Positions 51,340-60,204 of a stretch of 60,204 bases of DNA are shown piece after piece (the stretch's first letter is position 1; the number at the start of each line of letters is the position of its first letter). Position numbers and translations under genes: made by a program. This DNA comes from Thermoplasmata archaeon. Lineage in GTDB: Archaea; Thermoplasmatota; Thermoplasmata; Thermoplasmatales; Thermoplasmataceae. A model generated the notes under the pieces. That model made no database searches, had not been told where the DNA came from, and saw nothing but the letters and a program-made list of their open reading frames with translations. The stretch spans positions 1 to 60,204 of the forward strand of contig JAKADQ010000003.1 of the NCBI GenBank assembly GCA_021820405.1, in the 5' to 3' direction.

Positions 51340-51689
51340 TATTCTATAATGAAGGTAAAAACTTTAAACTATCTTATCTAAAATATATTCCGGTAATGTT
51401 TGTATATATCATAATTTAAGGCGTTCGAAGACTGATTATAAGTGGAATAGTTTTAGGAAAATATTGATCCAATAATCTGATGTCATATAGAAGGGCAACA
51501 TATTCCTCCTGACACTTAAAAGACTGAAGAATTGCTTCTCAATATTGGAAAAGTATATCCATTTCAAGATTTTTGTAAAGAGCTCTTGTGTTACCCAGCT
51601 TTGATTCTTTTAATAAAGATCTTATTGGAATTTTAAACACTCTCCTGCACCCACTAATCTTTGGAAAAGAAAAGATTGTAGATTTCCCC

Positions 51690-51905
51690 ATTCTACCATA
51701 CATGGATGTGAGATGGAATACGGCGAAATTATCGTTCAATATTGATAAGGTAGTGGATTGTTGACATACCTGCTACGTAGGGGACAGGAACTGTGAAATT
51801 GCTGTAGATGAAAGAGTAGTGGTATGCAACTGCCTAGTGCTGATCGACTTAATCTAAGAATAATCAACGAGGTACATTATGAAGGTTAGTGTTCGATGTA
51901 ATTTT
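51690..51905 (+). repeat. Diverged direct repeat, copy 1 (left of ABC island)
   Basis: gGGGACAGGAACTGTGAAATTgctgtaGATGAAAGagTAgTGGTATgCAActGCctAGTgCTGATC matches copy 2 at 56018..56235. Confidence 0.7.
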
Positions 51906-51936
51906 GGGAAATATAAAAAAAATTATCCAATTCCAA

Positions 51937-52536
51937 TCAGAAAAGATTCCTGTTTTTCCGATAACTTAGATAACTGAGGGAGATCAGCACTGAGATGGAT
52001 GCAATCTCTGCCAATATCAAATAAAAGAGAAGTGTTGGCCTAGGAAGATGGAGTATCATAAATGCCGAATGCTGGGCCGGAAGAGTTCCATTTAAATATT
52101 GACTCTGATTGTTATAATCCAGAAGTGTCCCAAATTTAATCTGGAAATAACCGGGAGTGAGATTCAAGTATGTGGAATAAAATTGCCTGCTGGTCATGTC
52201 AATTGAATAATTTGCGAAAGTGGACCATTTTCCACCAGGGGTTGTTTCCCTTTCAATGTATATCATTTGAAAGACTGAGGCATAGTGCAAGGGCTTACTG
52301 GAAGAGGCATATTCGCTGTATATTGTAATATATCCTCCACTGCCATATACATCTATGAATCTTCCATCGAACTGCATACCGGAGGGCTTCGAATTCTCAC
52401 AGCTTGCATTTAAAGGCGCCTCAAGTTCAATTGAAGTCCCTTTTTCCGTAGAAACCATGAAGAAAGATAGTGTTATAATTAGAATTGATAAAGAGAGCGC
52501 TAGAAGTTTGTTGTATAGTGACATTTTATAGATCAC
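51937..52536 (-). CDS. Membrane-anchored exported protein with N- and C-terminal TMs (ABC island component)
   Basis: N-terminal LLALSLSILIITLSFFMV, beta-rich ectodomain, C-terminal LLFYLILAEIASISVLISLSYL; overlaps the upstream permease by 4 bp. Confidence 0.65.
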   Translation of the reverse strand: MIYKMSLYNKLLALSLSILIITLSFFMVSTEKGTSIELEAPLNASCENSKPSGMQFDGRFIDVYGSGGYITIYSEYASSSKPLHYASVFQMIYIERETTPGGKWSTFANYSIDMTSRQFYSTYLNLTPGYFQIKFGTLLDYNNQSQYLNGTLPAQHSAFMILHLPRPTLLFYLILAEIASISVLISLSYLSYRKNRNLF

Positions 52537-53171
52537 CTCCCACTCTTTAGATTAAGGTGTGTTAGCAAAAGGAACGATATTTCGTAGAAAGCAACCGAGA
52601 TGATTATAATAAATATGGCAAGTTCCAGAATATGCATAGACACTCTTGTAGTATCCAGCACACTTACTCCGCTCGTGATCAACCATAAAAGAGGTGATGA
52701 ACGAAAGTGGAAGGAGATACCATTGAGTGAATAATAAAATCCAAATAGAAATACAAAACTTGCCAAACCATTTCTGGTAATTGCTGCCACTACTCTCCCT
52801 GTGGACAGTAAGAGAGATATATTTGCCGTTAGAATCGTAGCTACAAATGCCACGTATGAAAAGTTAAGAGAGAAGAAAGTAATTTCATACATCACAAAGA
52901 AAAGAGCAATAATCATCAGCACAGGAATGAGAATCTCCATATACATGGAATAACGTGCCAGGGTTTTTCGGTTAATTGGCATGCTGAAAATGTATCCCAT
53001 TACACCCCTCTCTATCTTGGAGGAATAATTGTAGGATATGATTGAACAATAAAGAATCAAAAATATTTCGATGTAACCGAAGCCCCCTAATCCTGGTGGA
53101 TAGGAGGCGTAAAGATTTGCATCTGTAATAGAGACAACTATTATGGCAGTGATTATAGCCAATATCTCCAC
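52533..53171 (-). CDS. ABC-2-type permease-like membrane protein
   Basis: About 6 TMs; YNYSSKIERGVMGYIFSMPINRKTLARYSMYMEIL resembles the ABC-2 coupling/juxtamembrane segment. Confidence 0.7.
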   Translation of the reverse strand: MEILAIITAIIVVSITDANLYASYPPGLGGFGYIEIFLILYCSIISYNYSSKIERGVMGYIFSMPINRKTLARYSMYMEILIPVLMIIALFFVMYEITFFSLNFSYVAFVATILTANISLLLSTGRVVAAITRNGLASFVFLFGFYYSLNGISFHFRSSPLLWLITSGVSVLDTTRVSMHILELAIFIIIISVAFYEISFLLLTHLNLKSGR

Positions 53172-53223
53172 TATGTAGAACGGATCGGTGGAGTATTCAA
53201 GGTATTTTATCAGATCAATTCGT

Positions 53224-54096
53224 CTAACTATTTAGAACACCTCCTAAGTAGGATGGGAATTTGTGTATACTGAGTATGCCCTCAAGTAATTGAGGGTCGA
53301 GTTTGGATAGGAATACCCTCAAGTTGGAATTCCTTATAATCAGTTGGCCATTGTTTACAATGACATCAAACTCCTTCTCCAAAGCCTCCTTCATATATTC
53401 CATATCGGCCACCGTTAACACTATAAAACCATCTTTACCAGATCCATCATTTGTGGTTATCGGGCCATTTAAAGACTCTTTACTTGCAATGATGGCATAA
53501 TCCGCAATGGGAAGTATTTCATCAAGGAGATGACTTGTTATGAGAAATGATGCCGAGAATTCTGTGTTCATTTTCCTGATGAACCCAGCAAGCTTCATTC
53601 GATTAATTACGTCCAGATTGGCATTTGGTTCGTCCATAACAAAAAATTTTGCCTCGGCACTCAGACATAATATGACCGATACTAGCTGTAGCTCACCACT
53701 GCTGAGTTCCTTCCACTTCCTGGGTATAACATACTCAATGTCAAACAATGAAAGAAGATCACGAAGCCTTTCGCGCGATATCTTTCTTAGCAGGGAGTAA
53801 TACTTAATCCACTGCCGTACCGTGCCTCCTGCAATTCCCACTGGCCTTTCTGGTAAAAACGAGACCTCTGAAAAAGCATTGACCGATTCATTGTAAGGTG
53901 AAAAACCCATCAATTTTACCTTTTCCCTGTGATCTACTCTGGTCAAACCTTCAGCAACTGATATGAGGGTGCTTTTTCCGATACCGTTTGGTCCAATCAG
54001 TACAGTTACTCCTTCGGGGATTGACACCGTCAGTTTCTTTAGGGAAGCGTTGTTTGCATAGCTCACCCTAACTTCAGATATGTTTAACAGGGACAT
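53224..54096 (-). CDS. ABC transporter ATP-binding protein
   Basis: VLIGPNGIGKSTLISVAEGL, ELSSGELQLVSVILCL, KFFVMDEPNANLD and LITSHLLDEIL. Confidence 0.93.
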   Translation of the reverse strand: MSLLNISEVRVSYANNASLKKLTVSIPEGVTVLIGPNGIGKSTLISVAEGLTRVDHREKVKLMGFSPYNESVNAFSEVSFLPERPVGIAGGTVRQWIKYYSLLRKISRERLRDLLSLFDIEYVIPRKWKELSSGELQLVSVILCLSAEAKFFVMDEPNANLDVINRMKLAGFIRKMNTEFSASFLITSHLLDEILPIADYAIIASKESLNGPITTNDGSGKDGFIVLTVADMEYMKEALEKEFDVIVNNGQLIIRNSNLRVFLSKLDPQLLEGILSIHKFPSYLGGVLNS

Positions 54097-54989
54097 TCTG
54101 AGATCCTACCTTCTGTTTTCATTTTCTCTTTCCTTAATTGTTTTCTCTTTTTTGCACTTCTTAAAAGCGCGTAAAAAACTGCAAAGGAAATGATCCATAT
54201 GGGTGGTATATAAAACGCATATTCAGACAGATAGTGAGTGTAGTCAATAGGATGCAGCGCTACATTAGTCGCCACAAGTAATAAAGAAAAGCCGATTGAA
54301 TACTGCAACCCCTTAGTATTAAATACCTGATACAGAAATGATGTGTTCCCTGTAATAAAGGCGCGTACCAATATGTTAGTGTTGCCTGCATGATCATAAT
54401 CGAACTGGTTTTTTTCTATTGAAAGGTGAAATTTATCTGAAACAGGTACCATAGACTCATTTACATTGTTTACCTGTATTTCAGTTGGGCTTGTTATGCC
54501 AATTTTGGCCTGCAGTGAAGAAAGTGAAGCATTACTGGTCATATAGATGATTTGATAGTTTTGTGGATCTCTCATGGCTGTGCCAACGAGTCCCTCAGGA
54601 AGTTTGTAAAATGATCCGATCTGAATAGGAAGGCTGTTAAGAAAAAACTGAACAAACGAATTATCTATAGAGATAATTTCATTCTCTGAATAATTAATAG
54701 TATCCTGTTCACCACAGTAGAACTTCTCCTTTATTTTTACCTTATTTGATAGAACAGTGAGTTTTATTACACCTTGTGGGAAAGTGTAATTGTTACTGTT
54801 AGACTGCAGCTTAGCGTAGCTATTCCTATCAGCGCACACGTAATAAGTGTAATAAGAACCATCTGACAAGGCATTGGAATTCAAGGAATCCCTTGATTGT
54901 TCAAATTCTTCCAGTGGAAGAAGAATAATTGTAACTGATATTACTACTAATGCTACAATTAAGATAACGAGGAGTTTTTTAGCTTTCAT
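54084..54989 (-). CDS. Membrane protein with large ectodomain (ABC island component)
   Basis: N-terminal TM LLVILIVALVVISVTIILLPL, about 200-aa ectodomain, C-terminal TMs, basic tail; 13-bp overlap with the ATPase gene. Confidence 0.65.
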   Translation of the reverse strand: MKAKKLLVILIVALVVISVTIILLPLEEFEQSRDSLNSNALSDGSYYTYYVCADRNSYAKLQSNSNNYTFPQGVIKLTVLSNKVKIKEKFYCGEQDTINYSENEIISIDNSFVQFFLNSLPIQIGSFYKLPEGLVGTAMRDPQNYQIIYMTSNASLSSLQAKIGITSPTEIQVNNVNESMVPVSDKFHLSIEKNQFDYDHAGNTNILVRAFITGNTSFLYQVFNTKGLQYSIGFSLLLVATNVALHPIDYTHYLSEYAFYIPPIWIISFAVFYALLRSAKKRKQLRKEKMKTEGRISECPC

Positions 54990-55029
54990 TTTGAACTACA
55001 CACCTATTAAAAATAATATTATTTGGAGA

Positions 55030-55704
55030 CTAAGAAAGTCCAAAAGAAATTATTGTAAACGCAATTGCCCCCCAATGGACTGCAATATTGCTGTTTATTT
55101 CAGCCATACCCTTCACAGCTCCCTTTCCGGGTTCTGCAAAGGCCCTTTCTTTAATAAGTATGTTTGTCGTTAAGGTTGTAGAGCCCATGTTTTGGCTTGC
55201 CGAAAACGACGGATCCCAATACACTGCCCTCGTTGGGATACCTGTTGACGTGTAATATATTGAACCCACCATCAAACTACCTTTGTTATCGGACATACCC
55301 CACGGCCAGAGGTTTGTATAGTCTAAATTAGTCTTTGATTTCAAAGCTTCGAGATTGTAGGTTATATGACGACCATTAGGAGTTATGATGTAATGCACGG
55401 GAAAAGAGAGGTTTAGGGATGCATATTCGTCTCCAATTCCATTAACGGGAAACGTAGACACATTTACAATCTGGTTGTATTGCATTTCTCCCCACACCGT
55501 AGTAGTAGCGGAAAGGAGCGATGGTCGAGCCCTAGATTCATGCCCAGATTGTGAAACTGGTTCAACAGTGGCCGAGAAAGAAACCATAAGCACACTAAAT
55601 AATACAGACATAAACAATAGACCCTTCAAAACAGAAAGTAGGTCCGATACAGTAACGTCAATATCGGACAAACTCATCCTATCGAATTGTTCATGATTAT
55701 CCAT
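55030..55704 (-). CDS. Exported protein with hydrophilic N-terminal leader and hydrophobic C-terminus (first gene of ABC island)
   Basis: MDNHEQFDRMSLSDIDVTVSDLLSVLKGLLFMSVLFSVLMVSFSATVEP...; C-terminus WGAIAFTIISFGLS. Confidence 0.6.
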   Translation of the reverse strand: MDNHEQFDRMSLSDIDVTVSDLLSVLKGLLFMSVLFSVLMVSFSATVEPVSQSGHESRARPSLLSATTTVWGEMQYNQIVNVSTFPVNGIGDEYASLNLSFPVHYIITPNGRHITYNLEALKSKTNLDYTNLWPWGMSDNKGSLMVGSIYYTSTGIPTRAVYWDPSFSASQNMGSTTLTTNILIKERAFAEPGKGAVKGMAEINSNIAVHWGAIAFTIISFGLS

Positions 55705-55721
55705 AGTTGTTAATATACATG

Positions 55722-55736
55722 CTTTATATAAATTTT
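55722..55736 (-). promoter_or_regulatory. Probable TATA box for the ABC island operon
   Basis: Reverse complement aatTTATATAAAgcatgtatattaacaactATG: TATA element about 25 nt upstream of the start codon at 55704, as in leaderless archaeal transcripts. Confidence 0.5.
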
Positions 55737-56017
55737 CTGTATGCTAAGTCTATTAAATGCCTGACGGTTATTAAATATTATTAATCCAATAATATTAGTG
55801 CCCTACAAAAGCTGTGATATCCAATTGAGTATGAAAAGGTTGGATAGGATTTCATTTTAAGAACTGAGGAGCAGGGCTATTGGGGATAATCATTGTAAAA
55901 AAATCATCGCGATGTTCAGGGTTCACTATATCTCATAAAGAGCATCATGCAAAATATTAACAACCACAACAAAAACTTTTCTCCGCATAGGATACATATA
56001 ATTCTAAGGTGTTCCAT

Positions 56018-56235
56018 TCTATCTTACGTGGATCTAATATGGGAAGAAGGAAGGTGATCCTCAATATTTATGAGATAGGATATCGTTAAGACATTTATTA
56101 ATCTGAGGAACAGGAACTGTGAAATTCCTTTTGATGAAAGGTTATTGGTATTCAACCGCGCAGTTCTGATCAATCATATGGGTTCATGATCGATAATGTG
56201 GATGATGAAACTCGGTGTTTGATTTGAGATTAAAG
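56018..56235 (+). repeat. Diverged direct repeat, copy 2 (right of ABC island)
   Basis: GgaACAGGAACTGTGAAATTccttttGATGAAAGgtTAtTGGTATtCAAccGCgcAGTtCTGATC matches copy 1; preceding stretches cattctatcttacgtggat / cattctaccatacatggat also align. Confidence 0.7.
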
Positions 56236-56264
56236 GCTAGATCAAATATATTTTTAGATATTGA

Positions 56265-59566: not shown

Positions 59567-59759
59567 CTTATTTCATATTTTTATGCAGCTGTATTAGTTA
59601 TAAATTTACTACATATCATAATTTCCAGTAAAGAGCCATATGTGATTTTCATAAAGGTAAGATCTCACCATATTCAATATAGATAAATTAGACTGTCTCA
59701 CATCTCATGAAATGTCACACAAACGTCGAACATTATAAACAGAATAGGAATATTGGGAT

Positions 59760-60204
59760 ATGCCCTCAAAACACATCCCACTAATCATGCATATAACAGA
59801 TAATATAGTTTCGCAAGATGAAAGAAAAAGAAAGTATTCTAATAGACAGATCATAAAGATACTTGTATTGCTGAATATATTTGGAATATCATACAGGTCA
59901 GCAGGGATATTCCTCAGGAACCATGAGGAATATCTGAACATGATCGATCTTAAAGAAATACCATCATTTCAGACATTATCAAGAAGAGCAAGAATGATTG
60001 ATCTTCATGCATTAAACAGAAAGATCACATATGAACATTCCATGAATGAATGTGCAGCCATGGATTCATTCATGATTCACACATGCAAGTATTCCACAGC
60101 AGTAAGAAGAAAACTGTGGGGAAATTACAAAGATCATGAATCAGGATGGTCTAAGACAACCAAGGGATGGTCCTATGGAAGAAAATGTCATGTATCCATG
60201 GATG
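59760..60204 (+). CDS. Transposase, IS4/IS5-superfamily-like (truncated by window end)
   Basis: Open frame from ATG 59760: MPSKHIPLIMHITDNIVSQDERKRKYSNRQIIKILVLLNIFGISYRSAGIFLRNHEEYLNM...CAAMDSFMIHTCKYSTAVRRKLWGNYKDHESGWSKTTKGWSYGRKCHVSMD; MDSF carries a probable first catalytic Asp. Confidence 0.75.
   Translation, partial: MPSKHIPLIMHITDNIVSQDERKRKYSNRQIIKILVLLNIFGISYRSAGIFLRNHEEYLNMIDLKEIPSFQTLSRRARMIDLHALNRKITYEHSMNECAAMDSFMIHTCKYSTAVRRKLWGNYKDHESGWSKTTKGWSYGRKCHVSMD

Follow-up and report, generated by a model that had tools for sequence, protein, structure and literature searches.

How did a five-gene operon come to stand between two same-orientation copies of one sequence in an acid-loving archaeon, and what does it encode? 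The host, whose genus we infer from kinship to be Cuniculiplasma, is represented by a draft genome of 1.35 Mb in 130 contigs that is 72.5% complete; the whole stretch of it analysed here, 60,204 nucleotides, is referred to as the window. The block at issue, 51417-56242, lies between a phosphodiesterase gene on the left and an ECF transporter operon, with its EcfT gene, on the right. With a probability of roughly 0.7, we take it to be what remains of a composite-transposon-like island that was acquired horizontally and whose operon most likely encodes an ABC-2 exporter. Its parts are:

51340-51416, no strand: left flank of the insertion site, from the phosphodiesterase gene to copy 1; alignable to the 121-bp empty site of genome G018
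51417-51918, plus strand: copy 1, a decayed, internally deleted insertion sequence (IS) relic with left end TAAGGCGTTCGAAGA; aligns end to end with the IS of genome G037 except for an internal deletion of ~493 bp
51781-51845, plus strand: core repeat of copy 1, reading DRNCEIAVDERVVVCNCLVLID; transposase C-terminus
51937-52536, minus strand: gene E, exported protein with an N-terminal hydrophobic segment, an ectodomain and a C-terminal hydrophobic segment
52533-53231, minus strand: gene D, probable member of an ABC-2-type permease family; the listed open reading frame starts from GTG 53171, and conservation reaches the ATA codon at 53231
53224-54096, minus strand: gene C, ABC ATPase (PF00005, 52.5 bits)
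54084-54989, minus strand: gene B, two hydrophobic helices flanking a beta-rich ectodomain
55030-55704, minus strand: gene A, N-terminal acidic segment, one transmembrane helix, beta-rich domain and C-terminal hydrophobic segment
55739-56242, plus strand: copy 2, a decayed, internally deleted IS relic, with orientation and, most probably, deletion as in copy 1
56107-56171, plus strand: core repeat of copy 2, reading NRNCEIPFDERLLVFNRAVLIN
56243-56264, no strand: right flank of the insertion site, from copy 2 to the EcfT gene

The pair of direct repeats that the first-pass annotation placed at the two borders is real. Their 65-bp cores are 82% identical, and the repeats score 78 against each other, whereas 1,000 dinucleotide shuffles averaged 25 and peaked at 41, which rules out chance similarity. 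When the surrounding 340 bp are compared, the gapped local alignment extends over ~160 bp, and the part upstream of the core alone also exceeds every shuffle. No other place in the draft genome matches above noise; weak core matches on contigs C104 and C23 lie within coding sequence and were set aside as noise. The repeats had been described as ~200 bp long, and copies are indeed present, but each true copy extends over ~500 bp. They had also gone unrecognised as decayed transposase genes, a homology that emerges from protein searches.

The parent element can be traced in related genomes. Among 77 genomes of the same archaeal family, three others contain the ~72-bp core of the right repeat, in each case within a reading frame that ends like a DDE transposase (IERTFSILEE...NRN...). 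Used as a protein query, the transposase fragment finds copies in 28 of the 77, several of them full-length at ~304 aa and others with stops; in the genome studied here it matches copy 1 in the window and gives four further hits, to partial copies, on contigs C79, C41 and C31. The 304-aa protein of G037 matches Pfam DDE_Tnp_1 with 75.0 bits (cut-off 23), and the full IS in that genome is 1,000 bp long with ends TAGGGTGTCCAAA. A DDE transposase of 304 aa, an element of ~1 kb and short inverted ends are all like the IS5 family. The nearest NCBIfam models of the G037-type transposase are likewise those of the IS5 family (NF033579-NF033581, 59-66 bits), but the scores stay below the curated cut-offs of 110-140 bits (best 65.9 bits against 140), so that by profile score the parent IS is outside every curated IS5 model, with IS5-like as the nearest description. 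Aligned to copy 1, the G037 protein matches with residues 243-304, across three in-frame stops, at codons 51708-51893 (E = 2e-8 in the window); aligned to copy 2, it matches with residues 231-304, again with stops, and weakly with residues 8-51. Both copies lack the middle of the transposase gene and carry stops or a frameshift, so neither encodes a functional transposase. By this homology, both repeats are what is left of one ~1-kb insertion sequence.

This identification bears on the idea that the repeats are a conserved element, either structured RNA or regulatory, lying upstream of the two operons. The core exceeds its surroundings in conservation and is found in other genera, as such an element might be, but it reads as a transposase C-terminus, the sequences that it matches in those genera are transposase genes or remnants of such genes, and an Rfam search gave no match. 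We rejected this identity for the repeats and regard it as extremely improbable.

Two further elements related to this IS were observed. A second, related IS5-like transposase, of which the N-terminal half is present, lies on the plus strand at 59754-60203, where the contig ends inside it; it has 52% amino acid identity to the G037 protein and 76% nucleotide identity to a sequence on contig C111 of genome G010. Genome G075 has an element of ~550 bp at two places (L016:1-550 and L098:1244-1790) that are 95% identical; it ends in the right half of the same IS, has an unrelated left part, and is possibly another non-autonomous derivative.

The two relics appear to be shortened in the same way. 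The left ~300 bp of the IS align to both copies (z about 10 over shuffles), as do the right ~210 bp (z 11 and 7), and the middle has no counterpart in either (z about 1). When one free deletion was fitted to each copy separately, the best breakpoint joined IS positions 297 and 790 in each, leaving ~493 bp missing; copy 1 constrains it tightly and copy 2 loosely, the optimum for copy 2 moving slightly, within its broad range, when a second reference IS is used. Most probably, to go by these alignments, both relics are ~500-bp derivatives with one common deletion. Like MITEs, they are internally deleted derivatives of an IS that retain both ends. A sequence model of the junction region found just these two copies in the 72.5% complete genome and none in 11 relatives; with no third copy in the 12 same-genus genomes, the miniature form was probably no multi-copy MITE family there.

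The copies are 54% identical to each other on the left and 62% on the right, and 53-55% and 59-61% identical, respectively, to the IS. Because they are about as far from each other as from the IS, the relics must be old. The same similarity of distances is unlike what two recent copies of one element would give, and this, like the lack of a third miniature copy, counts against our preferred reading. As in a composite transposon, one IS occurs twice and flanks cargo, here in the form of miniature derivatives. There is no functional transposase in the element and no readable target-site duplication around the block, where the ends have decayed and the expected duplication is just TA; we therefore call the island composite-transposon-like. 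In the sequence of events that we favour, the miniature elements would have been mobilised in trans by a full-length relative and would have carried the operon into the site. The copies have since decayed to ~53-62% identity, as the alignments show, and the operon has stayed open.

The insertion site can be seen without the block in a close relative. In G018, of the same genus, 121 bp separate the phosphodiesterase gene from the EcfT gene; this interval contains neither operon nor relic, and the flanks align at both sides of the block. The first-pass annotation had predicted an empty site holding one repeat copy; the empty site exists, but the repeat copy is absent from it. This comparison indicates that the block was gained in the lineage of the present genome, the less likely alternative being deletion in G018 or elsewhere, and an empty site in so close a relative suggests a horizontal origin for the operon. 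In the same-genus genome G014, the interval is occupied by a decayed MFS transporter gene (L055:4791-5347), and in G017 an MFS gene adjoins the phosphodiesterase gene.

Horizontal arrival could also have come about through homologous recombination, if one miniature IS copy was resident between the phosphodiesterase and EcfT genes and a DNA molecule with the cassette and another copy of the element entered by a single crossover. Such a crossover would leave the copies in exactly the direct orientation seen, and a common deletion suits one shared element. The G018 site is nevertheless empty of any relic, and the left halves of the copies are no closer to each other than to the IS. Integration by this route seems unlikely to us, with a chance that is still appreciable.

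The cassette itself has a patchy distribution. The gene order A-B-C-D-E recurs in five other genomes (G045, G046, G030, G014 and G017), and more distant forms occur at many other loci. A profile of B matched 26 of 117 genomes of the order; these all belong to the host's family, and several of them have two to six matches each. A broader profile, applied to 400 genomes of the class, matched 27, of which 25 are from that family. The presence/absence variation expected of a mobile cassette is thus evident among relatives. Viral contigs yielded distant ABC ATPases alone, and plasmids nothing for B. The genome studied here also has a second, distant B-C-D-E operon, on contig C128 (L145:3652-6708), with no gene A beside it in the list of open reading frames. 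Its contig C104 carries a cluster (L103:4796-9257) in which an ABC ATPase with a distant match to C is accompanied by a membrane protein and several exported proteins; the non-ATPase proteins lack any Pfam match. In G018, a DDE_Tnp_1 transposase gene lies between genes A and B of an operon of this family elsewhere in the genome (L147:7542-9086), so IS elements also interrupt these operons.

The kinship of the cassette points outside the genus. Its proteins are 56% (A), 63% (B), 70% (C), 51% (D) and 51% (E) identical to those of G045, which belongs to another genus, compared with 50% for eIF6 and 45% for PurK, the two core proteins compared between these genomes. We argue for transfer because the cassette identity of 51-70% exceeds the core identity of 45-50%. 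For C, D and E, the window is nearer to G045 than is G046, a congener of G045 with 77% (eIF6) and 81% (PurK) core identity to it. The best tree places the window cassette beside that of G045, with an alternative tree not rejected (AU p = 0.18). The GC content of the cassette, 38.9%, is near that of the genome and the 40.0% of the window, as expected for an old, ameliorated acquisition; the G045 locus has 47.6%.

These relationships weigh on the possibility that the operon is an old resident, inherited vertically, with an IS inserted independently on each side and the whole block lost in relatives. Losses are frequent in these genomes, and operons of this kind occur widely across the archaeal family, both of which would fit. 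The closest relatives of the cassette are, however, in another genus, at an identity higher than that of two core genes; G014 and G017, from the same genus as the host, have distant versions at other sites; and two independent insertions sit poorly with one deletion common to both relics. We consider old residence improbable, clearly more so than recombination. The earlier proposal of a mobile or horizontally exchanged cassette is accordingly supported by the relic repeats, the empty G018 site, the patchy distribution and a kinship closer to another genus than that of two core genes; the route may have been composite transposition or recombination.

The operon is intact, as first described, with all five genes on the minus strand and overlaps of 4 bp between E and D and 13 bp between C and B. 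The motifs of C are likewise intact (Walker A, GPNGIGKST; signature, LSSGE; Walker B; H-loop), and the protein has an additional C-terminal extension of ~85 residues. The Pfam family ABC2_membrane_2 (PF12679) matches two of 17 members of the D family, with a best value of 4.8e-8, and the window D protein itself has no Pfam match. The conserved N-terminal extension of D, IVRRIDLIKYLEYSTDPFYIVEIL (53172-53231, minus strand), also present in G045 and G046, follows directly on an in-frame stop codon and contains none of the codons ATG, GTG and TTG. An ATA or ATC codon is preceded, at a distance of 6 nt, by a GGAGGTG-like motif. These features suggest a non-canonical start or a frameshift from C.

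Neither Pfam nor NCBIfam gave an accepted match for gene A, B or E, in agreement with the first impression that the three non-ABC proteins belong to no recognised family. The predicted model of B is good (pLDDT 81) and has a beta-rich ectodomain between two long helices; comparison of this fold with the PDB and a viral library gave nothing at E <= 0.001, and a sequence search of solved structures gave none for B and weak matches alone for E. The predicted model of A is poor (pLDDT 46).

It had been concluded that the system is not a standard importer or exporter. This holds for the three partners of no known family, but C is an ABC ATPase and D probably falls in an ABC-2 permease family, so an exporter is probable. 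From gene content, we infer an ABC-2 exporter with three exported partners: C would power the permease D, and A, B and E would be exported, membrane-anchored partners that bind or hand over substrate outside the cell. One ABC ATPase adjoining one ABC-2-type membrane protein in an operon is also the arrangement of ABC-2-type exporters of the BcrA/DrrA/NatA kind, from which the window operon differs in its three extra exported families. An antimicrobial-peptide or immunity system, in which A would be the precursor and B and E would join the ABC-2 pair in exporting it or protecting against it, would suit the patchy, multi-copy distribution, the mobile context and a first gene that is exported and has a leader-like acidic N-terminus. 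We find it doubtful, since variability in A does not exceed that of the other partners, and none of A, B and E convincingly matches a bacteriocin, immunity or defence family. Anti-phage defence was considered and rejected: a defence search returned only generic ATPase matches to C and no defence family for A, B or E.

Bracketing of cargo by miniature elements has precedents. The blaPER-1 integron is flanked by two 439-bp MITEs in the same direction (PMC3934969), and TIME-COMPs are MITE-bracketed composite transposon-like elements (PMC13367494). As in these cases, two non-autonomous miniature elements stand around cargo in the window, in the same direction as in blaPER-1. Here, by contrast, the elements are decayed and of another transposon family, the host is an archaeon, the cargo is an exporter operon and no target duplication is readable. 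Cuniculiplasma divulgatum has predicted genomic islands with IS elements and transport genes, and these IS-associated transport islands, similar in that respect to the block, are thought to have been acquired laterally from other acidophilic archaea (PMC5155288). In the available part of that island account, we found no mention of a five-gene operon bracketed by miniature elements.

Taken together, and at somewhat less than even odds, the operon may represent an ABC-2 export system of five components, three of them from new exported protein families, that is nearly confined to one acidophilic archaeal family and has spread between genera, here by miniature elements acting as a composite transposon. 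If true, miniature-element composite transposition would have an archaeal example. The locus offers a concrete case in which the passage of cargo from one archaeal genus to another can be tested, the empty site being readable and the relics of the vehicle recognisable. It also defines a recurrent five-gene exporter family, three of whose protein families are absent from Pfam and NCBIfam, in archaea whose surface biology is little understood.
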